Source: Aurantiacibacter spongiae
GTDB lineage: Bacteria > Pseudomonadota > Alphaproteobacteria > Sphingomonadales > Sphingomonadaceae
Assembly: GCF_003815535.1 (NCBI RefSeq)
Contig: NZ_RPFZ01000001.1
Coordinates: forward strand, 248,001-312,000
Direction: 5' to 3'
DNA: 64,000 nucleotides
Position numbers and translations under genes: made by a program. Under the pieces are notes generated by a model that made no database searches, had not been told where the DNA came from, and saw only the letters and a list, made by a program, of their open reading frames with translations. This document shows positions 11,530 to 38,073 of this stretch, in pieces (the first letter of the stretch is position 1; the number at the start of each line of letters is the position of its first letter).

Positions 11530-12793
11530 CACATCCGCCTCGACCGTCCCGCCCACCGCGCCTACCCGAACCGTCGCTTTCGAGAAGCGGCTGAAGAAGC
11601 GATACGCGGCGGAAAGGCGCTTCAAGATGATGGGGCTGGGCGCCGTCGTATTCTCGATAGTGGTGCTCGTGTTTCTTCTCGTTACGATGACCATAAACGG
11701 TCTTGGTGGTTTCCAGCGCGCAGAATTGTCAGTGCCGGTGGATCTGTCGCAGGCGGCGCTCTCGATCGACGAACCCGTAACGAACGCCGACGAAGCTATT
11801 TCCTCCCTGCAGCGGCAGGGTCTGCCCGAAGTCGTCCAGTACAGTGCCTCCGAAGCACTCGGAGACGAGGCGGCAGATCAACTGGCCTCCGATGCCTGGC
11901 GTGTCGTAGCCGACGAGATCGTCGCCGACCCCTCTCTGGTCGACGAGAGCCGAACCTACTGGCTCCCCGCCAGCGAAGACCTTGCTACTGCGCTGACAGG
12001 TTCCGGCCAGACGAATCTGCAGCCGCTGGCGCGCGAACTGACAGCCAATGGCGCGCTGGCTGACCGCTTCGATCCTGGGTTTCTGACCCGTTCCGACGCA
12101 ACCGATCCGCAAATGGTCGGTATCTGGGCCGCGTTGAAGGGATCGATCCTCACGATGATCGTCACCCTGGCGCTCGCCTTTCCCATTGGGGTTCTGGCCG
12201 CGCTCTATCTCGAGGAATACGCTCCGCGAAACAGGTGGACCGATCTGATCGAGGTGTCGATCAACAATCTGGCGGCGGTCCCGTCGATCATCTTCGGGCT
12301 TCTCGGTCTGGCGGTGTTCCTCGGCCTGTTTCCCAACCTTCGCTCGGCTCCGGTCATAGGCGGCATGACGCTTGCGCTGATGACGATGCCCGTCATCGTG
12401 ATTTCCGGTCGCAATGCGATCAAGGCCGTGCCACCGTCGATCCGCGATGGTGCGCTGGCTATCGGCGCGAGCCCGGTGCAGGTGGTATTCCAGCATGTCC
12501 TGCCCCTCGCCCTGCCCGGCATTCTGACCGGCACGATCATCGGCATGGCCCGGGCGCTTGGGGAAACGGCGCCCCTGTTGCTGATCGGGATGCGCGCCTT
12601 CGTCGCCACACCGCCCGAAGGCTTTACCGACAATGCGACCGTCCTGCCCATGCAGATTTTCCTCTGGTCCGACGAGATCGACCGCGGCTTCGTCGAACGC
12701 ACGAGTGCAGCAATCATCGTGCTGCTCGCATTCCTTCTGCTGATGAATGGTTTGGCCATTTATCTGCGCAACCGTTTCGAAAAGAGCTGGTAA
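11522..12793 (+). CDS. pstA: phosphate ABC transporter permease PstA (DUF3333 N-terminus)
   Basis: Second permease of the Pst system, 423 aa. Residues 1-200 form an N-terminal domain with a membrane anchor and a large periplasmic part (DUF3333-type), followed by the permease domain with [19 protein letters not shown] and the PstB-coupling loop [22 protein letters not shown]. The stop codon shares its last A with the ATG of pstB (TAATG), pointing to translational coupling. Confidence 0.93.
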
Positions 12794-13617
12794 TGCAACA
12801 GACCGACGACTTCACAATGCCGTCGAGCACCCCGATCGAGGCCGAGAATGTCGCGCCGGGCGAGACAAAGATGCGCGCCCGCGACGTCTCGGTCTATTAC
12901 GGGAAAAAAAAGGCGATCGACGAGGTTTCGATCGACATTTTCACCGAATTCGTCACGGCTTTCATCGGGCCTTCGGGCTGCGGAAAATCGACATTCCTGC
13001 GGGCGTTGAACCGCATGAACGACACGATATCCTCCGCCCGCGTGACCGGCTGCATCGAACTCGACGGGGAGGATATCTACTCTTCGGACATGGACGTGGT
13101 CCAGTTGCGAGCCCGCGTCGGAATGGTTTTCCAGAAACCGAACCCCTTTCCGAAATCGATCTATGACAACATCGCCTATGGCCCCAAGATTCACGGGTTG
13201 GCGCAGAGCAAGTCCGATCTCGACGAAGTGGTCGAAAAGAGCCTGCGCCGCGCCGGTCTATGGGAAGAGGTAAAGGACAGGTTGAGCGATTCCGGCACAG
13301 CCCTGTCCGGGGGGCAGCAGCAGCGACTGTGCATTGCGCGGGCCATCGCGGTGGAACCCGAGGTTATCCTCATGGACGAGCCATGCAGCGCGCTCGATCC
13401 GATTGCGACGGCCAAGATCGAGGAACTCATCGACGACCTGCGCGGCCGCTACGCCATAGTGATCGTTACGCACTCGATGCAGCAGGCGGCGCGTGTTTCG
13501 CAACGAACCGCCTTCTTCCATCTGGGCAATCTGATAGAATACGGACAGACTTCGGACATATTCACCAATCCGCGTGAATCGCGGACGCAGGATTACATTA
13601 CTGGCAGGTACGGTTGA
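12793..13617 (+). CDS. pstB: phosphate ABC transporter ATP-binding protein PstB
   Basis: ATPase that powers PstSCA; with PhoU it also signals phosphate status to PhoR. The 274-aa protein has Walker [11 protein letters not shown]-loop MVFQKPNPF, signature LSGGQQQR, Walker [14 protein letters not shown], and the switch His in VTHSM. The family hallmark [10 protein letters not shown] follows Walker A. The start at 12793 overlaps the pstA stop; the long open frame upstream is a shadow within pstA. Confidence 0.97.
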
Positions 13618-13619
13618 CG

Positions 13620-14285
13620 ATGGAACACACGGTAAAGGCGTTCGACGAGGACATCACTCGCCTTCGCGGTCTTATCGCCGAGATGGGTGGTCTGGCCGAG
13701 CTTGCCATCCATCAGTCGCTCGACGCCCTGGTGCGCGGCGACGAGGATCTGGCGAAGGACGTCGTCGATAACGACGCCAAGCTCGACAAGCTCGAAGCGG
13801 AGGTGGACGCGATGGCTGTCCGCATACTCGCGTTGCGCGCGCCGATGGCTGATGATCTGCGCGAGATCATTGCCGCTCTGAAGATCGGTGGCGTGGTTGA
13901 ACGGATCGGCGACTATTCCAAGAACATCGCCAAGCGCGTCGGCCGGATCGAGGGGCGGACGCGGTTCGAACCGCTCCTGTTACTTCCCGCGATGGGCGAG
14001 GTCGCGTCTGAGATGGTGCACGACGTGCTTACCGCCTACGCGGCCCGCGACCCCGTAGTCGCAAGGGAAGTCATCGAGCGCGATGCCAAGGTCGATGCCT
14101 TTTACGATTCGATCTTCCGCAACCTCGTCAGTCACATGGTCGAAAATCCGGCCACCATCAGCAGTGCGGCGCAGCTGCTGTTCATCGCCCGCAATCTCGA
14201 ACGCATCGGCGATCACGCTACCAATGTCGCGGAGATGGTCCATTACGCGGCGACCGGATCCTACCCCGACGATATCGAGCGCTGA
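13620..14285 (+). CDS. phoU: phosphate signalling protein PhoU
   Basis: Cytoplasmic negative regulator that links PstSCAB to PhoR. The 221-aa protein shows the duplicated PhoU three-helix domain with the two metal-binding repeats ERIGDYSKNIAKR and ERIGDHATNVAEM. An ATG at 13620 (MEHTVKAFDED) is the family-like start; a TTG at 13614 overlaps the pstB stop. Its stop codon lies inside the first repeat of the Pho box for phoB. Confidence 0.96.
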   Translation: MEHTVKAFDEDITRLRGLIAEMGGLAELAIHQSLDALVRGDEDLAKDVVDNDAKLDKLEAEVDAMAVRILALRAPMADDLREIIAALKIGGVVERIGDYSKNIAKRVGRIEGRTRFEPLLLLPAMGEVASEMVHDVLTAYAARDPVVAREVIERDAKVDAFYDSIFRNLVSHMVENPATISSAAQLLFIARNLERIGDHATNVAEMVHYAATGSYPDDIER

Positions 14286-14310
14286 CACGAAACTGTCAGG
14301 GAAATGTCAT
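14282..14310 (+). promoter_or_regulatory. three-repeat Pho box upstream of phoB
   Basis: CTGACAC (14282-14288), CTGTCAG (14293-14299) and ATGTCAT (14304-14310) are 7-mers at exact 11-bp spacing, as in PhoB operators. The first repeat contains the phoU stop codon. The phoB ATG is 46 nt downstream, so phoB probably has an autoregulated promoter besides read-through from pst. Confidence 0.75.
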
Positions 14311-14356
14311 AGACGCTCGTCCGCACTTACTTGACGCGACGAACTGGGCTCTTCTC

Positions 14357-15046
14357 ATGACTGCTCCGAAACTTCTGCTTGTCGAAGACGATACCGCCCT
14401 TGCCGAGCTGCTCGAATATCGCTTCGGCAGTGAAGGATACGATGTGCGCGTGACATCCGATGGGGACGAGGCGCTGATCCTGGCGGAGGAGGACGTACCC
14501 GATCTCGTCATTCTCGACTGGATGATCGAGGGTACGAGCGGTATCGAGGTTTGCCGGCGCCTGCGACGGGAAAAGGCTACTGCCCACGTGCCCATTATTA
14601 TGCTCACCGCGCGCGAGGGAGAGGACGATCGTGTCCGCGGCCTCGAGACGGGTGCCGACGATTACCTGACCAAGCCCTTTTCTCCCCGCGAGTTGCTAGC
14701 GCGCGTCGCAGCCGTCCTTCGCCGCGTGCGTCCCGCACTGGCCGGAGAGACGATCGAAGCCGGCGATCTGAAACTCGATCCCGTCGCGCATCGAGTGGAA
14801 CGTCGCGGAAGGCAACTGCAGATGGGACCGACGGAATACCGGCTCATAAAGTTCTTCATGGAGCACCCCCGCCGCGTTTTCTCTCGCGGGCAATTGCTCG
14901 ATTCAGTCTGGGGAACGGGCAGCGAAATCGAAGAGCGAACCGTGGACGTCCATATCAGGCGGTTGCGCAAGGCTATTGCGGTGGAGAACGCTCGCGACCC
15001 CATCCGGACAGTTCGTTCGGCTGGTTATGCGCTGGAACCCGTATGA
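14357..15046 (+). CDS. phoB: phosphate regulon response regulator PhoB
   Basis: OmpR-family transcription factor activated by PhoR. The 229-aa protein has a receiver domain (LLVEDDTALAELLEYRF; phospho-acceptor Asp in LVILDWMIEG; TKPF) and a C-terminal winged helix with GPTEYRLIKFFMEHP, RVFSRGQLLDSVWG and RTVDVHIRRLRKAI, matching PhoB. Position after phoU and the upstream Pho box confirm the call. Confidence 0.96.
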   Translation: MTAPKLLLVEDDTALAELLEYRFGSEGYDVRVTSDGDEALILAEEDVPDLVILDWMIEGTSGIEVCRRLRREKATAHVPIIMLTAREGEDDRVRGLETGADDYLTKPFSPRELLARVAAVLRRVRPALAGETIEAGDLKLDPVAHRVERRGRQLQMGPTEYRLIKFFMEHPRRVFSRGQLLDSVWGTGSEIEERTVDVHIRRLRKAIAVENARDPIRTVRSAGYALEPV

Positions 15047-15601: not shown

Positions 15602-16320
15602 TTATCGACATGTGCTGAATGCGGCTGATCGACCTTGATCCAGGTGAAGATGGTCGGCGTGCGCCGCGTTGTAATCGGGTGAAAGGACGGTGCCGAAACT
15701 GAGACACGCGGCATCTCGAACCACATGCAGGAACCTCGCTTCGCTACCCTCCTCCTCCCAACCCTCGAGCAGACTGATACGCCGACCGTCTTCGAGCTGA
15801 AAAGCGGAGATATCGATGGCATTACCCGTTGCGTGTTCGCTCCAGCGACCGGCTGGGGCGCCATAAAGTTGGCGACAGTTATAGGTACCCAGCTGTTCGA
15901 CGGTTCGAACGGGCGATCCGAAAAGACGTTCTGCTGCGGGCTGCACGTTCTGACTGATCCAGACGACGAGCCCCGCGGCTGTGGCACAGGTCATCTGCGG
16001 ATGCCCATTCAAGGGAATATCGGGTACGATTATCCTGTCGATGCGACGACATTCCCCTCTCCCGTAGCGGGTAGAGGCTCGAATGACACGGCGCTGCGGT
16101 CGAGAACCTGCCGGCACTGCGCCGGATCTTCTGCCAGGGACGCAAGTTTCCCTTCGGTCGTCCAGCCTCGCGGATCGCGCAGATCGAGCGGCGCCGTGGG
16201 GTCATGCTGCGGGTGGTCGGTCAACCAGGTTCGAGCGGCCAGAAACAGCGCGGCGATGGCAAGAAGCGTGATCGCATGGCTATCGGTTCTGGGCGGGTCT
16301 GGCCACTTGCGTCGGATCAT
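15602..16320 (-). pseudogene. extensin-like C-terminal domain protein, frameshifted
   Basis: The two halves lie in different frames. The N-terminal half (start 16320, MIRRKWPDPP) gives a membrane anchor (about residues 14-30), then CRQVLDRSAVSFEPLP and ends out of frame. The C-terminal half (stop 15602) reads ECRRIDRIIVPDIPL, YNCRQLYG, SEHATGNAIDISAF and HADHLHLD, the conserved core of extensin-like proteins (M15-like metallopeptidase fold). The switch occurs at the G4 run 16054-16057; one extra G would restore a 239-aa protein. This is either a real frameshift mutation or a homopolymer sequence error. The start codon shares an A with the dnaE2 stop (TGATG), so it is the last cistron of the dnaE2 operon. 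Confidence 0.75.
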
Positions 16321-19300
16321 CAATGAAAGTCGCGCGATTTGGGGATGACCCTCACATCGCGCGGATGGCCCTGATGCCAACCGCATTCGCGATTGCCGGC
16401 AGGGGGTGGCTCCCATGGTTCGACGGTTTCGGCCTTCCGATAGGGATCGTTCGCGCCCGTCCGCAGATCGTCACGTGGGTTGAGCTTGGAAGGCAGCGGC
16501 GAATTGACATGGTCTGCCCGCGCGACGGGGGCGTTGAGCAGATCGTCCGACAGGCGATGCAGTTCATGTGTCGCATCGGTCATGTGGTGAGCTATGACAT
16601 GGATCACCTCGTCGTCGTACTCGACCCGGCCGCGCACTTCCATCAGCCGTGATCCCATCACAACCGTGCGCTGCCTTTCCTTCAGGTCGGGCCAGACGAC
16701 CAGATTGATGACCCCTGTCTCGTCCTCCAGCGTGATGAAGCATACCCCCTTGGCGCTGCCAGGTCGCTGGCGGATCAGCACCACGCCCGCGACATGCACC
16801 ATGGAGCGGAACTTCCGGTTCCTGAGATCGCAGGCGCGCACGAAACCGCGCTCGGCCAGATGCGGGCGGAGAAAAGCCATGGGATGCGCCTTCAAACTGA
16901 GGCGCGTTGTCTGGTAATCGGCAACCACCTCTTCCGATAAAGGCATTCGCGGCAGGAAGGCGCGGCCCTGCTCCGCCCCCTCGTCGCGCTCGTCCGCATG
17001 GGCGAACAGCGGCAGGTCTGCCGCTCCCGTCAGACTCCGCGCATCCCATAACGCCTGCCGCCGCGTCAGATCGAGCGATCCGAAGCAATCCGCGCTGGCC
17101 AACCTCTCGATATGCGCGGGGCCGACCTGCGCCCGATCTCGCAATTCGGTGACGTCGCGATACAGCCCGTTGATCGCACGTTCGGCGATGAGTTGCGCTG
17201 CAACGTGTTCGGGCAGGCCGTCCACCTGCCGCAGACCCAACCGCAGGGCTATATGTCGGTCCTGGCGTCCATGATCGGCCACATCGCTGTGCACCATGTC
17301 GGCGTGCAGTTTCTCGAGCGTGCAGTCCCAGTCCGAATGGTTCACGTCCGCGGGCAGCACCTTCACCCCATGCTCTCTCGCATCGCGCACGATCTGGGCC
17401 GGCGCGTAGAAGCCCATGGGCTGCGAATTGAGCAACGCGCAGCCGAAAGCCGCCGGGAAATGGCATTTCAGCCAGCTCGACACGTAGACCAGCAGCGCGA
17501 AACTGGCCGCGTGACTTTCGGGAAAGCCGTATTCGCCGAAACCGCGTATCTGGTTGAAACAGCGCTGGGCGAAATCGCGATCGTACCCGCGCTTGACCAT
17601 GCGCTCGACCATCATATCCTGCAACTCGTCAACCATTCCGCGGCTGCGGAAGGTCGCCATGGCCTTGCGCAGACGATTGGCCTCTGCACTGGAGAATTTC
17701 GCGGCGTCGAGCGCGATCTTCATCGCCTGTTCCTGAAAGATCGGCACACCGAGCGTACGCTCGAGAATACTGGAAAGCTCGTCCGGCGCGCCATGCCGGG
17801 GCGAAGGGGCGGGGATGACCACATTCTCCTCCCCCCGGCGGCGCTTGAGATACGGATGGACCATGTCCCCCTGGATCGGGCCCGGCCGCACGATCGCCAC
17901 CTGAATGACGAGATCGTAGAATTCGCGTGGACGCAGGCGCGGCAGCATGTTCATCTGCGCGCGGCTTTCCACTTGGAACACCCCTAGCGAATCGCCCTTG
18001 CGGAGCATCGTGTAGGTTTCCGGATCATCGCGCGGCACGGTGGCGAGAGTCAGCCGGCGATCGTGGTGATGCTCCAGCAAGTCCAGACACTTGCGGATGC
18101 AGGTGAGCATGCCCAGGGCCAGTACGTCGATCTTGAGGATGCCAAGCGCTTCGATATCGTCCTTGTCCCATTCGATGAAGCTGCGATCGGGCATGGCGCC
18201 ATTGCCGACCGGCACCGTTTCGGTCAACGCACCCTGGGTCAGGATGAACCCCCCGACATGCTGCGAAAGATGTCGCGGCATTCCAATCATCTGCTCGGTC
18301 AGCTTGAGAACACGCCTGAGATGCGGATCGGTCACGTCCATGCCCGTTTCGGCGGCGTGCTTCTCGCTCACTTCCTTGCCCCACCCGCCCCACACGGTCT
18401 TGGCCAGCGCGCTGGTCACGTCCGCCGACAACCCCATCGCCTTGCCCACCTCCCGGATCGCCATGCGCGGGCGGTAGTGGATGACCGTCGCGGTCAGCCC
18501 GGCGCGGTGGCGGCCATATGTGTTGTAAATATACTGGATGACCTCCTCGCGTCGTTCGTGCTCGAAATCGACGTCGATGTCGGGAGGCTCCTTGCGTTCT
18601 TCCGAAATGAAGCGATCGAACAGCAGGGCATGGCGAGCCGGATCGACGCTGGTGATTTCCAGACAATAGCATACGGCGGAATTGGCCGCGCTGCCCCGCC
18701 CCTGACACAGGATCGGAGGATCGCAATTCCGGGCAAAATCGACAATGTCCTTGATGGTAAGGAAATAACGCGCGAGGTCGAGCTTGCCGATCAGCGTCAA
18801 CTCGCGTTCCAGCGTCTTGGCAACACTGTCGGGCAGGCCGTTGGGATAGCGTCGTTTTGCACCCTCCCAGGTCTGCTGGACCAGGTAGTCCTGCGGGCTC
18901 ATCGCTTCGGGGTAGATCTCGTCGGGATATTCGTATTTCAACTCGTTAAGGCTGAAAGAGCACATATCCGCCACTTCGCGCGTTGCCGTGATGGCGTGGG
19001 GCCAGCGAGCAAACAGAGTTTCCATTTCCTCGGGACTTTTCAGGTGCCGCTCCGCATTGGCGTGAAGCAGGTGCCCGGCCTCAGCGACCGTTGTCTTGTG
19101 GCGAATGGCGGTCATCACGTCCTGCAGGGGCCGCCGGTCGGGCGCGTGGTAGTGCACGTCGTTGGTGGCCAGCAGTTCCAGCCCGTTGGCGCGGGCCAGC
19201 GCATCCAGACGGTCGATCCGCGCCTGGTCATCTCCGCGATAGAGGTAGCTTGCGGCCAGATGCCGCAGCCCCGAAAGGCCGCGGGCAAGGTGCGGCAGGA

Positions 19301-19868
19301 CGTCGGAGAGCGTACCGGACACCGCTTCCTGCCGGACGGTCCCGTCGAGCGAAACGACATTGCTCGCCCATCCCGGCACGGTAAAGCGTTCGGCGAGGTC
19401 GGCAGGCGGCAGCACGGCAAGCTGCACCCCTTCGCAGTGGTCGGCCAGCATCGGCAGGCTGATGTCGCACACGCCCTTTTCCTGCCACCCTCCGTCCAGC
19501 GTACCCATCCGACCCGCGGAGATCAGCGTACATAGCCGGCCATAGGCTGCGCGATCGGTGGGATAGGCGAGGAATGCCAGGCCTTCGACGGTTTCGATCC
19601 GGCAACCTATCACCGGAGTCAGTTTAAGCGTCGCGGCCTCGGTATGGACACGCACCACGCCCGCCAGCGAATTGACGTCGGCAATGCCGATGGCATCGTA
19701 GCCCAGCGCACGGGCGGTCAGCACCAGATCGACCGCATCCGACGCACCGCGCAGGAAGCTGAAGCAGGAAACCAGGCCCAGTTCGACGAACGACGCACGG
19801 GGCGGCGCATCGATGCTTTCGGGATCAAGCTCTATCGTACGCTTGGGAAGGAGGTCGCTATCGGGCAC
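16320..19868 (-). CDS. dnaE2: error-prone DNA polymerase III alpha-like DnaE2 (ImuC)
   Basis: The polymerase of the SOS-induced ImuA-ImuB-DnaE2 mutasome for translesion synthesis. The 1182-aa protein has an N-terminal PHP domain ([27 protein letters not shown]), the C-family palm with [19 protein letters not shown] (catalytic Asp pair near residue 430), fingers and a C-terminal OB domain ([24 protein letters not shown]). It is longer than E. coli-type trimmed DnaE2 but within the alphaproteobacterial range. The start at 19868 is GTG with a weak ribosome site; the gene begins 58 nt after udgX ends, and the extensin-like gene overlaps its stop. It is predicted to be driven from the LexA-controlled promoter in front of the radical SAM gene. 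Confidence 0.93.
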   Translation of the reverse strand: [1182 protein letters not shown]

Positions 19869-19926
19869 GCGAAGGCCCGCTATGTCATTCGCATGCAGGC
19901 AGGGACGAGGAGAAAGGGGAACCGGA

Positions 19927-21363
19927 TCACGCGGTCAGTTCCTCCACCCGTTCCTTCACCGCAGCCAGATCGGCGGCGAACAGGCGCTCCTGCTCTTCCT
20001 TCGCAGCGCCATCGAGCCGCAGCAGGTAGGACGGGTGGGCCGTCACCCACAATTCGCTGCCATCGTCGAGCGCGATAGGTTCCCCGCGCACCTTGGAAAT
20101 GCTGACCGTCTTGCCCAGCATCCCGCGCGCCGCGCTGGCCCCCAGAGCCAGGATGACCTTGGGCTTCACAATGGCGCGCTCGGCTTCCTGCCACCAGCGG
20201 CACACGTCGATTTCCTTGGCCGTGGGCGACTGGTGCAAACGCCGCTTGCCACGCTGGACATATTTGAAATGTTTGACCGCATTGGTGACATAGGTGTTGC
20301 GCCGATCGATCCCGGCCCGTTCCATATGCGCGTCCAGCACCTGCCCGGCAGGACCGACGAAGGGGCGGCCGGCCTGGTCCTCCTGATCGCCCGGCTGCTC
20401 CCCCACGATCATCAGCGCAGCGTCGTTCGGACCTTCGCCCATCACCGCCTGGTTGTCGAGTTCGCCGATCGGGCACTTGCGGCATGCGTGGATCGCCTTG
20501 TCGATCGCCTGGAGCGTTTCAGGTCGCTCCTCGAATTCCAGCGTGCCTGCTTCCACCATCTGCGCCTCCCGGTTCTGCGCGCCCGCCACCAACTCGGGAA
20601 TGAGCGAGGTTTCCGGCATGTTCTTCCAGTACTTCCGGGGCATTTCCTTCAGCATCGCCCCGATCTTCAAACGCGCGGGATTGAAGATGGATGCGTAATA
20701 TTTCCGCCAGAGATCTTCCGCAGGATCACCCTGCGGCGCATCCGATTTCTGCGCCGGCGGTCCTTCCCGCACGATTTCGCCATCCCAGTGCAGCGTTCCG
20801 CGCGGCGTAAGGATCGACCAGTTCATGTTAGCGAAGCGACGCACGAAAAAGCCGGCATTGGCGCGCACGATATGGTGGTCAGGCTCGAACCAGGCCACAT
20901 AATGCTCGCTTCCCCCGCTCTCGTCCTCGACCATGCGGAATCGCACGAAGGCGTGCATCTTGTGGCTGTCGCGGCGCACAGCCTTGTCCAGTTCCTCCAG
21001 CCGGCGCACTTCGCTATCGGCCTTGTCTTCCAGCAGGCGGGGTTGCGACTGCAGTCGCCAGAGCAGACTGTACAACAGCGCGAACCGCTCGGGATCGGAA
21101 TGCAGCGCCGCGTTCTTCGCCAATGCGACGAACCGCCTGCTCGCGCGTACCGGGCGATCGGGATCGTCGGGAATGGGCGCGCGTCGGTCGCCGTGACTGA
21201 ACAGGGAGGCATTGCCACCCGGTTCGACCCAGGCCACGCGATCGGGTGGGACGTCGCATTGCACCAGTTGCCGCGCCCGATCGCGCCAGAAGGCGAAATC
21301 ATCGCTGCGCGGCATGTGGACGACGAAATATGTGCCGAGCCTGACGTGGCTGAGCGACGTCAT
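19927..21363 (-). CDS. udgX: UdgX-type uracil-DNA binding protein with N-terminal DUF4130 domain
   Basis: UdgX proteins excise uracil and stay covalently linked to the abasic site through a His in the R-loop. Here residues 1-260 are the DUF4130 domain known as a fusion partner, and about 270-478 are the family-4-like UDG domain with Cys ligands for a 4Fe-4S cluster (CRKCP), GEQPGDQEDQAGRPFVGPAG, and the diagnostic KRRLH loop (His about 377, equivalent to the covalent His of characterised UdgX). HPSYLLR is the last motif. Its ATG overlaps the stop of the radical SAM gene (ATGA) and dnaE2 follows in the same direction. Confidence 0.92.
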   Translation of the reverse strand: MTSLSHVRLGTYFVVHMPRSDDFAFWRDRARQLVQCDVPPDRVAWVEPGGNASLFSHGDRRAPIPDDPDRPVRASRRFVALAKNAALHSDPERFALLYSLLWRLQSQPRLLEDKADSEVRRLEELDKAVRRDSHKMHAFVRFRMVEDESGGSEHYVAWFEPDHHIVRANAGFFVRRFANMNWSILTPRGTLHWDGEIVREGPPAQKSDAPQGDPAEDLWRKYYASIFNPARLKIGAMLKEMPRKYWKNMPETSLIPELVAGAQNREAQMVEAGTLEFEERPETLQAIDKAIHACRKCPIGELDNQAVMGEGPNDAALMIVGEQPGDQEDQAGRPFVGPAGQVLDAHMERAGIDRRNTYVTNAVKHFKYVQRGKRRLHQSPTAKEIDVCRWWQEAERAIVKPKVILALGASAARGMLGKTVSISKVRGEPIALDDGSELWVTAHPSYLLRLDGAAKEEQERLFAADLAAVKERVEELTA

Positions 21364-22586
21364 GCCGCGAACAGTTCGAGCTGTTCGGACTTCGGCGCCA
21401 ACAAGGTTCGCAGGTCGGCGCGGTCGGTCAGAAGAGTCGGGCGCCAGTCCGCGGTCACGATGAAGGCGCGAACCTTGGCGACCGATACTGTAAGCTTTGC
21501 AACATCCTCGAGCCGCAGGGTACGGTGGCGACGAGCGGCGATGATCTGGTTGACCGCCTTTACCCCCAGACCTGGTACGCGGAGCAGCATCTCACGTGAA
21601 GACCGGTTCACATCCACTGGAAAACGCTCGCGAAACTTGAGCGCCCAGGCGAGTTTGGGATCGATATCGAGCGGCAGGTTTCCGTCAGCCTCGGTCGCCT
21701 GCATGACTTCCTGCGCCTCAAAGCCGTAGAACCGCATGAGCCAGTCCGACTGGTAGAGCCGATGTTCGCGAACGAGCGGCGGGCGCTTCAGCGGCAACAC
21801 CGCGCTCGCATCGGGAATGGGACTGAATGCCGAATAATAGACACGGCGCAGGCGAAAACCGTCGTAAAGCCGGCTCGCCCGGCCTACGATATCGGCATCC
21901 GTCGCGGCATCGGCGCCTACGATCATCTGCGTAGATTGTCCGGCCGGGGCGAAACGCGGGGCATGCTTGAACCGCTTCTTTTCATCCCTCGCCTGCCGGA
22001 TTGCCATTTTCATGCCGCCCATCGCGCCTTCGATCTGGCGTGCATTCTTGTCGGGGGCGAGGCGAGTCAGTCCCGCATCGGTAGGCAATTCGACGTTGAT
22101 GGATACACGATCGGCGTAAAGGCCCGCCTGGTGAACCAGGTCCGGATCCGCCTCCGGAATGGTCTTCAGGTGGATATAGCCGCGAAAATCGTGATCTTCC
22201 CGCAGGATACGCGCGGTTTCTACCATCTGCTCCATCGTGTGATTGGAGCTTTTTATGATGCCGGAAGAAAGAAACAGCCCTTCGATATAGTTGCGCCGGT
22301 AGAAGGTCAGCGTCAGGTCGGCTACCTCCTGTGGCGTGAAACGCGCACGGCGGACATTCGAACTCTTGCGGTTGATGCAGTAGTGACAATCGAAGATGCA
22401 ATGATTGGTCAAAAGCACCTTCAGCAGGGAGATACAGCGGCCGTCGGGGGCGTAGGCGTGGCAGATACCCATGCCTTCGGTCGACCCGATGCCCTTGCCA
22501 CCCGAAGAGTTTCGCTTGGCCGTACCGGACGAGGCGCAGGACGCATCGTACTTCGCCGCGTCGGCGAGAATTTCCAGCTTCTCCAT
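21360..22586 (-). CDS. radical SAM protein, UdgX-associated putative DNA modification/repair enzyme
   Basis: A 408-aa protein of the family that TIGRFAMs links to UdgX. It shows the 4Fe-4S/SAM motif CIFDCHYC (C-x3-C-x2-C), the conserved N-terminus EKLEILADAAKYDASCASSG, the stretch GMGICHAYAPDGRCISLLK, and a C-terminal helix-hairpin-helix (LLRVPGLGVKAVNQII) of the DNA-binding kind. The substrate is unknown. Start: the ATG at 22586 agrees with the family; an ATG at 22604 lies almost at the predicted transcription start. It overlaps udgX by 4 nt and heads the operon with udgX and dnaE2. A LexA box covers its -10. Confidence 0.85.
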   Translation of the reverse strand: MEKLEILADAAKYDASCASSGTAKRNSSGGKGIGSTEGMGICHAYAPDGRCISLLKVLLTNHCIFDCHYCINRKSSNVRRARFTPQEVADLTLTFYRRNYIEGLFLSSGIIKSSNHTMEQMVETARILREDHDFRGYIHLKTIPEADPDLVHQAGLYADRVSINVELPTDAGLTRLAPDKNARQIEGAMGGMKMAIRQARDEKKRFKHAPRFAPAGQSTQMIVGADAATDADIVGRASRLYDGFRLRRVYYSAFSPIPDASAVLPLKRPPLVREHRLYQSDWLMRFYGFEAQEVMQATEADGNLPLDIDPKLAWALKFRERFPVDVNRSSREMLLRVPGLGVKAVNQIIAARRHRTLRLEDVAKLTVSVAKVRAFIVTADWRPTLLTDRADLRTLLAPKSEQLELFAA

Positions 22587-22606
22587 GATGCCTGGCTGAC
22601 CCATAT

Positions 22607-22621
22607 GTTCTACATACGTTC
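22607..22621 (-). promoter_or_regulatory. LexA (SOS) box at the radical SAM-udgX-dnaE2 operon
   Basis: GTTC TACATAC GTTC is an exact alphaproteobacterial LexA box (GTTC-N7-GTTC). On the minus strand a promoter TAGGCA-17 nt-TATGTA can be drawn whose -10 lies inside the box, the standard position for repression. On the plus strand the box is 6 nt upstream of a TTGACT -35 for the divergent lipoprotein gene. Confidence 0.85.
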
Positions 22622-22696
22622 TTATCCTTGACTTGCCTAGGGGTGTCCGTCTGATTTTCGTTGCTTGGCGGAACGGGGCGACGGACCGCGTATTTG

Positions 22697-23251
22697 ATGG
22701 CCATGGATCGTCTTTTTCGTGGTCTCGCCGTCCTGCTGCTGGTGTCTTCATGCGCGCGGGGTGCCGCAGATGAGGAGGAGATGACCGATCAGATTTACAT
22801 GGACGATCAACTCGATGGTGGTCTGACCTCTCACCGCGTCGAGCCATCTTCCGGTCCGGCGGACGAGGCGCCGATCCTTCACCCGATCAATTACGACCAG
22901 TTCGCTCCGCTGCTCGAGGCAGGAACGGGGTGCAGCTTTTCTTCGGCGCGGGGCGAGTTGCTGCTGGTCAGCACCGCCTCCCCTGGTGCGATCGAGGGCG
23001 CGAAGGGCGTCGTGGATGCGGGGAACGGCCCTTCGATCGTGCGTTCGCTCGCAGGCGGTGGATACGAAGCCTTGCGAAAGGGTCCAACCTTTTCAGACGG
23101 TTCGGTGTTTTCAATAGAAGTCGTTCGAGGGCCGGGCGATGGTCAGCCGGAGGAAATCGAAAGCACTGTCTGGCCTGCCTCGCTTATCGTGCGAGTGGAA
23201 AAGGGCGGTTCCGTCACCTACGAAAACGGGCAATGGTCGTGCGGGGCGTGA
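22697..23251 (+). CDS. putative lipoprotein divergent from the SOS operon
   Basis: A 184-aa protein of unknown function. It begins MAMDRLFRGLAVLLLVSSCARG with a lipobox ending VSSC, so it should be lipid-anchored in the envelope. The mature part is acidic and includes NYDQFAPLLEAGTGCSFS and two further Cys-containing stretches (GQWSCGA at the end); no known domain is recognised. A possible promoter TTGACT-17 nt-CTGATT lies at 22628-22656, next to the LexA box. ATG at 22703 is an alternative start. It ends 39 nt from the convergent imuB stop. Confidence 0.65.
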   Translation: MAMDRLFRGLAVLLLVSSCARGAADEEEMTDQIYMDDQLDGGLTSHRVEPSSGPADEAPILHPINYDQFAPLLEAGTGCSFSSARGELLLVSTASPGAIEGAKGVVDAGNGPSIVRSLAGGGYEALRKGPTFSDGSVFSIEVVRGPGDGQPEEIESTVWPASLIVRVEKGGSVTYENGQWSCGA

Positions 23252-23290
23252 GGGTCCGAAAAGGGGCGATGAGGGGCAGGCCGGGCGCGA

Positions 23291-24892
23291 TCAGGCGCAC
23301 AGCCCCTGCATGAACCAGTCGGGCATCCCGCCCCTCCCATCCCCCGCCAGACCGGCGCGGTAAATCCAGTAGCGACGCCCTTCGCCATCCTCGATCCGAT
23401 AGTAGTCGCGCAGCCTCGTCGATCCCTTTTCACGCCACCATTCGGGCGCGATCCGCTCCGGCCCCTCGACCCGCGCCACATCGTGCGTGTCACCGCGCCA
23501 GCTGAAGCGGCGAGGATAGCCATCGGGACTGGCGTAGAGCACCGAGATCCGCTCGGGTCGATCGAGCAGCTTGAGTGGCCGGGCATGGAAGGCGAGTACT
23601 TCCTGCGTCGCCCTTTCGGGTTCGAGCGGAGGCTGCCAGCCCTGTGCGCGTTCGGGGATATGGCTCGCCTTCAGCACGGGACGCTGCACCGCCTCGCGGC
23701 CAAGCCGCACGGTCAGCCGGTCGATGCAGGCGGCGAGCGAGGTGCCGTGTTCTTCCGCCGCGGCTTCCAGATCGGACTGCGCCAGCGACAACGGTTCCGA
23801 CCAGGAGGCACGAAGCCGCAGCATCTCGATTCCGAAACCGGCATCGATATCGTCGAGACGGTCGGCGAACAGGCGGCAGACATGCGCGCCGTCGCGGGTG
23901 GCGACAGCCAGTTCGAGCTCGCGCAGCACCACCTCGCCATCCACCCGCCACATGCCCAGTTGCAGGCGGCGCGCGCCCTCCCCGCGCGCCTCCAGTTCGC
24001 GCACCATGTCGGCGGCGAGATCTTCCACCACCTTGTCGAGCAGCGGGCGATGGCGGATCGGTTCGAGCAGCCGCCGCTGCACCAGCGGGGCGGCGATGGC
24101 GACCACCGGCAGCAGCGGCTCGGGCACGCGGCCCATGATCTGATCGAGCCGGATCAGCGGATTGGCAGCGGGTGAGCGCCGGTTGCGAAAGCGGCGCTGG
24201 ATAGCATCGCGTCCGGCGCGCCCTTCCTCCACGTCGGCGATGTCGCCCAGCCGTTTCAACCCCAGCCGCTTCAGTACCAGCAGCACGTGGGTATCGAGGC
24301 GCAGCGCCGCCATCGGCAGGTCCGACAGACAGGCGCGCATGTCCTCTCCGGCCGCCAGGACGGCACCCGGCGGCCCGTAATGCGCCAGCGCCCAGGCCGC
24401 GCCCGCCGTAGGTGCGATGGCCGCGCGCACAGCCAGTCCGCGCGCCGCGCAGCGATCATGCACATCGGCGAGAAGCCGCCGTTCTCCGCCGAAGAGATGC
24501 GCCACCGCGCTGACATCGACCAGCACGCCATCGGGCGCGTCGAGCGCGCTCCACGGACCCCAGCGTTGCGTCCAGACGGCGAAGCGTTCGAGAAAGGCGA
24601 GGTCGCCGGCCTGATCGGACGGGCGCACCTCCAGCTTTGGATAGAGCGTACGCGCATCGGCCAGCATCATGCCGGGCGCCCCGCCCACGGCGCGGGCGGG
24701 CGGATTGGCGGCGTCGATGCGAGGGCCGTGCGCGGTTTCGGTGACGAGCACCAGCGGCGCGGCATCCACCCCTTCCCCCGGGGCGCAGCCTTCGGCGTGC
24801 CGCCAGCGATCGAGCGCGAGCTGCGCGCACCAGATCGCCATGATCCGTCGCCGGCCCGATGCCGGATCGACGGGTTGGTGGAGAATAGGCAT
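23291..24892 (-). CDS. imuB: ImuB, inactive Y-family polymerase-like mutasome hub
   Basis: ImuB lacks polymerase activity and bridges ImuA, DnaE2 and the beta clamp. The 533-aa protein has a Y-family-like N-terminal half (AIWCAQLALDRW, then VLVDVSAVAHLFGGE, where active polymerases have SIDE residues) and a helix-hairpin-helix region (LKRLGLKRLGDIADVEEG). The long C-terminal tail is typical of ImuB (RYWIYRAGL near the end). The ATG at 24892 overlaps the imuA stop (TGATG). The much longer open frame upstream lies over imuA and is not coding. An internal Met (MAIWCAQ, 17 codons in) is an alternative start. Confidence 0.92.
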   Translation of the reverse strand: MPILHQPVDPASGRRRIMAIWCAQLALDRWRHAEGCAPGEGVDAAPLVLVTETAHGPRIDAANPPARAVGGAPGMMLADARTLYPKLEVRPSDQAGDLAFLERFAVWTQRWGPWSALDAPDGVLVDVSAVAHLFGGERRLLADVHDRCAARGLAVRAAIAPTAGAAWALAHYGPPGAVLAAGEDMRACLSDLPMAALRLDTHVLLVLKRLGLKRLGDIADVEEGRAGRDAIQRRFRNRRSPAANPLIRLDQIMGRVPEPLLPVVAIAAPLVQRRLLEPIRHRPLLDKVVEDLAADMVRELEARGEGARRLQLGMWRVDGEVVLRELELAVATRDGAHVCRLFADRLDDIDAGFGIEMLRLRASWSEPLSLAQSDLEAAAEEHGTSLAACIDRLTVRLGREAVQRPVLKASHIPERAQGWQPPLEPERATQEVLAFHARPLKLLDRPERISVLYASPDGYPRRFSWRGDTHDVARVEGPERIAPEWWREKGSTRLRDYYRIEDGEGRRYWIYRAGLAGDGRGGMPDWFMQGLCA

Positions 24893-25635
24893 CACATGCT
24901 CGCAGTCGCCTGCCCTTCGCCTCCCCCCGCGCTGGCGGGCGCGGGTTCCGACACGGAGCGGGAAGCGGGCAGCGGCGGTTCGGCGGCCAGTACGTGCCCG
25001 TCCTCCCGCAGCGTCCATTCCCCGGGCGCATAGCCGCGCGCCCGAAACAGCTCGGCAGACCAGGCCGGCTTGCCCGGGGCGCCGATGTTCCAGCGCGGCG
25101 GGGCGGAAGGTGCGCCGCGCATACGCCAGCGCATCCGCGCCGAACTGAGATCGGGCGTCGCATCCAGCCGCACGAGATAGAGCGGGACGCCATGCTTTTC
25201 CGCCGCCAGGCTGAGGCGGCGAGAGGCGGTGAAATCGAGCGCACGCGGATTGCCCGCGATCTCTCCGATCACGAAGGCCAGATCGCGGCAGCGCATCCCC
25301 TCTTCCAGCGCGAACAACGCATCCTCGGGCGTGTCGGCGCAGACATGGATCAGCCGGTGGCGCAGCGTTTCGGGCAGGCCGGCGCGATAGGGGCGCCCGG
25401 TCAGCTTGCGCGAGCGGGCGTCCTGCACCCACAGCACGCTGCGTTCTTCCAGCGTCTCGGGCTTGCAGGTGCTCAGGCCGTCGAGCGCCAGCGCCACAGC
25501 GGCGCCCGCCCCGCTCGCCCCGTTGCCGGGAGCAAAGATCTCGCTGTGCAGCGCAAGCCCCGCAGCCGGTCGCCAGCGCGGGTTGCGCGCGACCGATGCC
25601 AGCTCCGCTGCCTTGGGTAGCGTTGCCAAATCCAT
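24892..25635 (-). CDS. imuA: ImuA, SOS mutasome accessory protein
   Basis: ImuA is a RecA-like protein that acts with ImuB and DnaE2 in damage-induced mutagenesis. The 247-aa protein shows the family features: an N-terminal LHSEIFAPGNGASG segment, VLWVQDARSRKLTGRPY, and FVIGEIAGNPRALDFTASRRLSLAAEKHGVPLYLVR. The Walker A region is degenerate or absent, as in alphaproteobacterial ImuA. GAAGGAG lies 11 nt before the ATG. A LexA box covers the -10 of its promoter. It is translationally coupled to imuB. Confidence 0.9.
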   Translation of the reverse strand: MDLATLPKAAELASVARNPRWRPAAGLALHSEIFAPGNGASGAGAAVALALDGLSTCKPETLEERSVLWVQDARSRKLTGRPYRAGLPETLRHRLIHVCADTPEDALFALEEGMRCRDLAFVIGEIAGNPRALDFTASRRLSLAAEKHGVPLYLVRLDATPDLSSARMRWRMRGAPSAPPRWNIGAPGKPAWSAELFRARGYAPGEWTLREDGHVLAAEPPLPASRSVSEPAPASAGGGEGQATASM

Positions 25636-25652: not shown

Positions 25653-25687
25653 GTTCTCTTTATGTTCCCAACATGGCAGCCTGACAA
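25653..25687 (-). promoter_or_regulatory. imuA promoter with LexA box over the -10
   Basis: On the minus strand TTGTCA (25687-25682), a 17-nt spacer and CATAAA (25664-25659) form a sigma-70 promoter. The LexA box GTTC TCTTTAT GTTC occupies 25653-25667 and covers the -10. This is the second exact GTTC-N7-GTTC box in the repair block. Confidence 0.88.
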
Positions 25688-37985: not shown

Positions 37986-38073
37986 TCCGACTCATCCTTT
38001 CTGACGGCGACTGCGCCACCTTCTTCAGCCGATTGGCGTTCCCGAATCGTTCCGCCCCTGATATCGCGAGGGC

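Follow-up and report, generated by a model that had tools for sequence, protein, structure and literature searches.

A radical SAM gene and a DUF4130-UdgX fusion gene lie between a LexA-type box and dnaE2 in Aurantiacibacter spongiae

Passages of PMC8565304 describe the COG1573-COG4277 operon as a LexA-controlled uracil-DNA glycosylase (UDG) repair system of Bacteroidetes and cite earlier reports from Verrucomicrobia and Alphaproteobacteria. UdgX has a physiological role that a passage of PMC10359453 calls largely unknown. Here we analyze a stretch of 64,000 nucleotides (nt) from Aurantiacibacter spongiae (contig NZ_RPFZ01000001.1, positions 248,001 to 312,000; hereafter the window), in which a radical S-adenosylmethionine (SAM) gene, a DUF4130-UdgX fusion gene and dnaE2 follow one another on the minus strand. 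The radical SAM gene is of the TIGR03916 type, which we take to be the type of COG4277 in the published operon. Both loci hold a UDG gene and a COG4277 gene under LexA, but the passages of PMC8565304 that treat the operon do not present DUF4130 as its constant element and name neither a clamp-binding tail nor a unit containing dnaE2, unlike the locus described here. A single figure-legend sentence in PMC3765255 places DUF4130 with a radical SAM gene and a UDG in SOS gene neighborhoods, as here; unlike our data, the passages concerned give neither counts of co-occurrence nor a clamp tail. The imuA-imuB-dnaE2 cassette is the third close relative: all three genes and LexA boxes occur here too, and several relatives without the radical SAM pair show the plain cassette, but in the window dnaE2 is split from imuB and placed behind the radical SAM-UdgX pair.

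Literature searches on UdgX together with radical SAM found nothing, those on radical SAM with UDG and dnaE2, and likewise on COG4277, found nothing beyond PMC8565304, and a term search did not find "radical SAM" in a 2026 survey of bacterial polymerases (PMC12926913). The statement in the first-pass annotation that only parts of such a pathway are described is fair for the dnaE2-linked unit, but not for SOS control of the UDG/COG4277 pair, which is published in the passages of PMC8565304. Judged by its sequence, the locus represents a genuine variation in linkage on an already known SOS pair, undescribed in the literature found, with a predicted recruitment mechanism.

With moderate confidence, we read the unit as a radical SAM-DUF4130 pair that is induced in the SOS response, recruited by the clamp and active in lesion processing, and that has gained UdgX and, in this locus, dnaE2. 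DNA damage would switch on the LexA-controlled unit, as the conserved boxes suggest. The radical SAM enzyme, with its putative helix-hairpin-helix, would dock on DnaN by a conserved QLELF tail and, with DUF4130, would use radical chemistry to process a lesion or a damaged base in DNA where forks have stalled. The optional UdgX domain could excise uracil and cap the resulting site covalently, as is known for UdgX, and in Erythrobacteraceae and Novosphingobium DnaE2 might bypass what the pair leaves unrepaired. More tentatively, the clamp-tethered radical SAM-DUF4130 complex may represent a new radical-based lesion processing within the SOS mutasome that chooses between repair and DnaE2 bypass, with UdgX as a later add-on shielding uracil-derived sites. 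The features of the unit are as follows.

22607..22621, minus strand: LexA box GAACGTATGTAGAAC of the GTTC-N7-GTTC type, 5' of the radical SAM gene
21360..22604, minus strand: radical SAM gene, TIGR03916 rSAM_link_UDG (NCBIfam and Pfam matches)
22377..22400, minus strand: CX3CX2C radical SAM cluster motif (C69, C73, C76)
21525..21617, minus strand: helix-hairpin-helix region, protein residues 330-360 (weak matches)
21369..21383, minus strand: C-terminal QLELF, predicted beta-sliding-clamp-binding motif (match to the consensus QLxLF)
19927..21363, minus strand: DUF4130-UdgX fusion gene (TIGR03915 and TIGR03914 over cut-off)
16320..19868, minus strand: dnaE2 (imuC), error-prone C-family polymerase (NF004225)

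Open reading frames (ORFs) and family matches confirm the gene set, strand and order of the first-pass annotation, and the coordinates bear out its ATGA overlap between the radical SAM gene and udgX (21363-21360) and its 58-nt gap between udgX and dnaE2 (19869-19926, with the dnaE2 start taken as the GTG at 19868). The conserved start of the radical SAM protein is probably 22586 rather than 22604. DnaE2 scores 1376.7 bits against NF004225 (cut-off 939) and carries PDIDVDF at residue 429. What had been called udgX is a fusion: the UdgX half stands, with the N-terminal half belonging to DUF4130/TIGR03915. The two matches, both over cut-off, cover residues 20-252 (TIGR03915, 217.6 bits) and 254-469 (TIGR03914, 321.3 bits against a cut-off of 189.95).

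The constant partner of the radical SAM gene is DUF4130, not UdgX. DUF4130 was found over cut-off in 53/53 genomes with the radical SAM gene and in 3 of the 246 others in a sample of 299 Pseudomonadota genomes. The control genome, Caulobacter vibrioides, has matches to TIGR03916, TIGR03915, TIGR03914 and NF004225, of which those to TIGR03915 and NF004225 are certainly over cut-off. Among 131 radical SAM loci, which include a few near-identical rows, the partner is a fusion in 106, two separate genes in 2 and DUF4130 without UDG in 20, and 3 have none nearby; two of these last have DUF4130 elsewhere in the genome and the third is a short contig. Three of the 20 stand-alone rows (L069, L119, L187) end at contig edges and were removed, leaving 17, of which the 13 that fall in the phylum sample could be searched for TIGR03914: none (0/13) has a match over cut-off. 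Weaker matches occur in 7 of these 13 genomes, two of them at 110-114 bits, and may be other UDGs. The search took in 16 genomes, and the 3 with matches over cut-off have UDG-bearing or contig-cut partners. By eye, plasmid-collection records labelled Phocaeicola and Acinetobacter also show a DUF4130-sized ORF behind the radical SAM gene. UdgX is often an optional fused module on a radical SAM-DUF4130 core, which changes the choice of partner to test. Separately, three genomes of one genus (G258, G275, G345) hold DUF4130 with no radical SAM gene over cut-off, and in G275 and G345 it lies ~3 kb from a divergent dnaE2.

The UDG half gives a 155.9-bit domain alignment to 6ail, the UdgX of Mycobacterium smegmatis, and shares its GEQPG (residue 321), KRRxH (KRRLH, 373, with the R-loop histidine) and HPS..LR motifs. 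Motif B, HPSYLLR (443), fits the form given in PMC10359453 (motif A GEQPG, R-loop KRRIH, motif B HPS(S/A)(L/V)(L/V)R in the passage concerned) except for a Y where S/A is given. The solved M. smegmatis chain has 229 residues and no DUF4130 half, whereas here UdgX is fused behind DUF4130. No solved chain matches the DUF4130 half by sequence, and the best 50 Foldseek rows are nearly all UDG structures.

The radical SAM protein matches TIGR03916 at 584.6 bits (cut-off 343.5) and Pfam Radical_SAM at 30.7 bits (cut-off 29.5). The CxxxCxxC cluster noted at first pass is present as CIFDCHYC, with C69, C73 and C76 invariant across 68 aligned sequences. C23, C48 and C57 are likewise invariant in these sequences and are possible ligands of a second iron-sulfur cluster, in a region where the predicted structure is poor. 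The helix-hairpin-helix end proposed at the same time is less distinct: Pfam HHH_3 reaches 19.9 bits, under its cut-off of 27, and the C-terminal part gives weak profile matches to helix-hairpin-helix chains of ComEA and RuvA (best expect values (E) 0.02 and 0.029).

Residues 408-412 of the 414 in this protein read QLELF. QLxLF is a sliding-clamp-binding consensus that is often C-terminal, according to a passage of PMC4549789, and the tail may dock the radical SAM enzyme on the DnaN sliding clamp, to judge by motif conservation. Q[LM]xL[FW] occurs within the last 16 residues in 105/131 radical SAM proteins and has 0 copies in the remainder of their sequences. Of 6552 further ORFs from these loci, each 150 amino acids or longer, 2 have it; these ORFs are stop-to-stop frames of which many are not genes. 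Q408 is invariant in the 68 aligned sequences. The low predicted local distance difference test (pLDDT) score of the modelled tail, below 50, is as would be expected of a docking peptide and is not proof of one. In mycobacteria, a clamp-binding motif in ImuB serves to dock the mutasome (PMC10421592, in part). A conserved clamp-type tail on a radical SAM family is apparently new: the literature searched, whose scope took in few subscription papers, held no description of it, and a search on radical SAM, sliding clamp, DNA repair and SOS returned nothing on the subject, judging by titles. With its wide spread, conserved LexA boxes and predicted clamp dock, the radical SAM family is a concrete target.

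The window contains four exact GTTC-N7-GTTC sites against a mean of 1.94 in shuffled sequence, and 13 of 100 shuffles reach four; the view that the window by itself proves a LexA box was rejected on these figures. Two of the sites lie away from the unit, at 11771-11785 and 38038-38052. A stricter pattern, GAACRTANNNNGAAC, has 5 sites genome-wide (1 for the backward control), of which 2 are at the present locus; by eye, the other three adjoin genes without an SOS look, so that even the stricter form of the box is incompletely specific. We accept the box before the radical SAM gene as real because it is conserved across genus relatives: an exact box lies within ~100 nt upstream of the gene in all 21 of the relatives that carry it and in the window (22/22), against 0.65% of random windows. 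Among 80 named radical SAM loci a box stands within ~100 nt upstream in 75 (random windows 0.29%). In the phylum sample, the GAAC-N7-GAAC type is found upstream at 30/34 alphaproteobacterial loci (random 0.2%) and at 0/17 loci of other Pseudomonadota, and 15 of these 17 have within 200 nt a box of the CTGT-N8-ACAG type (pattern CTG[TG]N8[AC]CAG; random 1.8%). To judge from these patterns, LexA-type boxes before the radical SAM gene persist through the change of motif between Pseudomonadota groups.

LexA probably controls the whole radical SAM-DUF4130-UdgX-dnaE2 unit, and conservation of the box in the genus and phylum samples lends this support to the SOS control first proposed. The earlier description also had one promoter with a LexA box in front. 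The box stands; a search of the minus strand over 15900-23400 gave neither a sigma-70 consensus promoter nor a terminator, and the single transcription start is suggested by the one upstream box and by the absence of exact boxes in the stretch from radical SAM to dnaE2 (0/18 genus loci carrying both). Transcription would run from the radical SAM gene through dnaE2, with induction by damage.

The same-genus set comprises 37 genomes, A. spongiae included, of which 22 are positive for the radical SAM gene. In 19 of these (18/21 relatives plus the window) dnaE2 follows the radical SAM-UdgX pair, so the order is not confined to the window, the point that the first-pass annotation had wanted surveyed. 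In G020 and G022 the box, radical SAM gene and UdgX are located apart from dnaE2; in G015 the box and radical SAM gene are apart from it, and DUF4130 lies ~380 kb away. Together with nine genomes lacking the radical SAM gene, these three give 12 dnaE2 loci without an adjacent pair (G004 and G026 were left out). At six of the 12 an exact box stands immediately before dnaE2, at five dnaE2 comes straight after imuB, and the remaining contig is too short for a call. Compared with the six boxed loci, the pair sits between box and dnaE2, which would place dnaE2 on the same transcript. The three-gene description of the locus holds, but it left unmentioned the imuA and imuB genes directly upstream:

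25653..25667, minus strand: second LexA box GAACATAAAGAGAAC, 5' of imuA
24892..25635, minus strand: imuA, named for its position 5' of imuB (NF033429 ImuA 21.4 bits, far below the cut-off of 150)
23291..24841, minus strand: imuB (Pfam IMS and DUF6504 over cut-off in the scanned part, 23291-24730)
22661..23251, plus strand: divergent ORF, lipoprotein-like by eye, between imuB and the radical SAM box and outside the module

The minus-strand order is accordingly LexA box, imuA, imuB, the divergent plus-strand ORF, LexA box, radical SAM, DUF4130-UdgX and dnaE2. A contiguous imuA-imuB-dnaE2 cassette is not found in the window, where imuA-imuB are parted from dnaE2 by the divergent ORF and by the radical SAM-UdgX pair, and two boxes are present.

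Two wider samples were read for the position of dnaE2. The 80 named loci are the best of at least 571 confirmed, with close relatives over-represented and some repeating the genus set; dnaE2 follows in 21, is divergent in 1, lies apart in 49 and was left unassigned in 9. In the sample of 299 Pseudomonadota genomes, the radical SAM gene was over cut-off in 53 (51 loci read anew, G000 and G010 taken from the genus set), and dnaE2 is beside it in 9 of these, co-directional in 5 and divergent in 4, with 2 unassigned. The four divergent loci have one exact box between imuA and radical SAM, and the named Henriciella locus (L135) has two. This divergent linkage to imuA-imuB-dnaE2 occurs in two lineages outside the co-directional set. 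The conservation of the order and the linkage to the DnaE2 mutagenesis cassette are supported by genus and phylum loci.

A FastTree phylogeny of 149 non-identical radical SAM proteins (reduced from 154 rows by removing duplicates; 50 of 146 inner branches weak) places all 39 joined rows in a single set of 53, with a support of 98, from Erythrobacteraceae and Novosphingobium, in which 11 rows are apart and 3 unassigned. The divergent state needs two changes on the tree. We interpret the joined order as having arisen once and then been broken up repeatedly, and count two further linkages to this cassette; recurrent gain is the alternative.

Several observations weigh against the lesion-processing pair with its added dnaE2. 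At the protein level, 17/131 radical SAM tails show near forms of the clamp motif and 9/131 fit neither pattern; the predicted structure is poor (pLDDT < 50) at residues 23-56 and in the tail; and the protein has no sequence match among PDB sequences. In Foldseek its core matches radical SAM enzymes, HydE and viperin among them, with query template-modelling scores of ~0.3-0.4 (best 50 of 84 matches). We know of none among these best 50 that acts on DNA. At the genome level, dnaE2 lies apart from the radical SAM gene in 42/53 phylum-sample genomes and is missing in 8/53 at the threshold used, so the radical SAM-DUF4130 pair does not depend on DnaE2. The joined state requires at least 11 gains or losses, five of them forced by well-supported branches, and the joined order is therefore not stable.

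These last points suit a different explanation, possible if somewhat doubtful, in which the genes are neighbors only through a shared LexA regulon. They would then have a common switch rather than a pathway, a rearrangement having put the pair behind the box of dnaE2 and been kept because the regulation fits. Confinement of the co-directional linkage to one set of 53 rows is consistent with this, as are the radical SAM genomes without dnaE2 and the pairs distant from dnaE2 that retain their own box (G015, G020, G022). Against it stand the divergent imuA-imuB-dnaE2 linkage in two other lineages and the co-occurrence of the genes, dnaE2 being present in 45/53 radical SAM genomes and 69/246 others in raw genome counts that ignore kinship, a point that also limits what they lend to the lesion-processing pair.

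Radical SAM enzymes acting on damaged DNA are few, and spore photoproduct lyase (SplB), which links radical SAM chemistry to DNA repair, is the standard example. It is improbable, though conceivable, that the present enzyme directly reverses a pyrimidine photolesion in the same way, with DUF4130 as the damage recognizer. The radical SAM motif with a helix-hairpin-helix and the LexA boxes are compatible with such a role, and in the legend sentence of PMC3765255 Aravind and colleagues tie DUF4130 to "SplB-like radical SAM photolyases". However, TIGR03916 is the sole NCBIfam match of the protein, and no photoproduct lyase, SplB included, appears among the best 50 of 84 Foldseek matches (E <= 0.001) or in the listed profile matches to the PDB, which is not exclusionary.

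Very improbable is the chemistry of the first-pass annotation, in which the covalent UdgX-DNA adduct is modified or released by the radical SAM enzyme, which then passes the site to DnaE2: adjacency and the ATGA overlap in the window and a loose R-loop histidine pattern in 106/108 UDG-bearing partners speak for it, but DUF4130 stands alone at 17/131 radical SAM loci and the tested genomes of this kind (13/13) lack UdgX over cut-off, so we rejected adduct release as the leading idea for a general role in favor of the pair that holds, radical SAM with DUF4130, although it could persist as a supplementary function in genomes that have UdgX.

An anti-phage defense role was also rejected, PADLOC giving 0 families at E 0.001 for each of the three proteins (radical SAM, DUF4130-UdgX and DnaE2). 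The divergent ORF at 22661..23251 has no Pfam or NCBIfam match, and tblastn at E 1e-6 finds no counterpart of it in 22 related loci. The interval between imuB and the LexA box that it occupies (loci L030-L047) ranges from ~35 nt to more than 5 kb among genus members. A hemerythrin-like ORF, labelled by its motifs by eye, occurs behind the radical SAM gene in 17/131 loci, including L186, and lies between radical SAM and UdgX in L097, L107 and L092; it perhaps protects an oxygen-sensitive cluster. A relative of the radical SAM gene is found in 158 plasmid-collection records, 58 from Phaeobacter and 15 from Paracoccus, some of them very large and one (3.66 Mb) possibly a chromosome. On the opposite strand, past the 3' terminus of dnaE2, window positions 12235-15046 hold genes named by eye as a PstB-like ATPase, a PhoU-like protein and a PhoB-like regulator.

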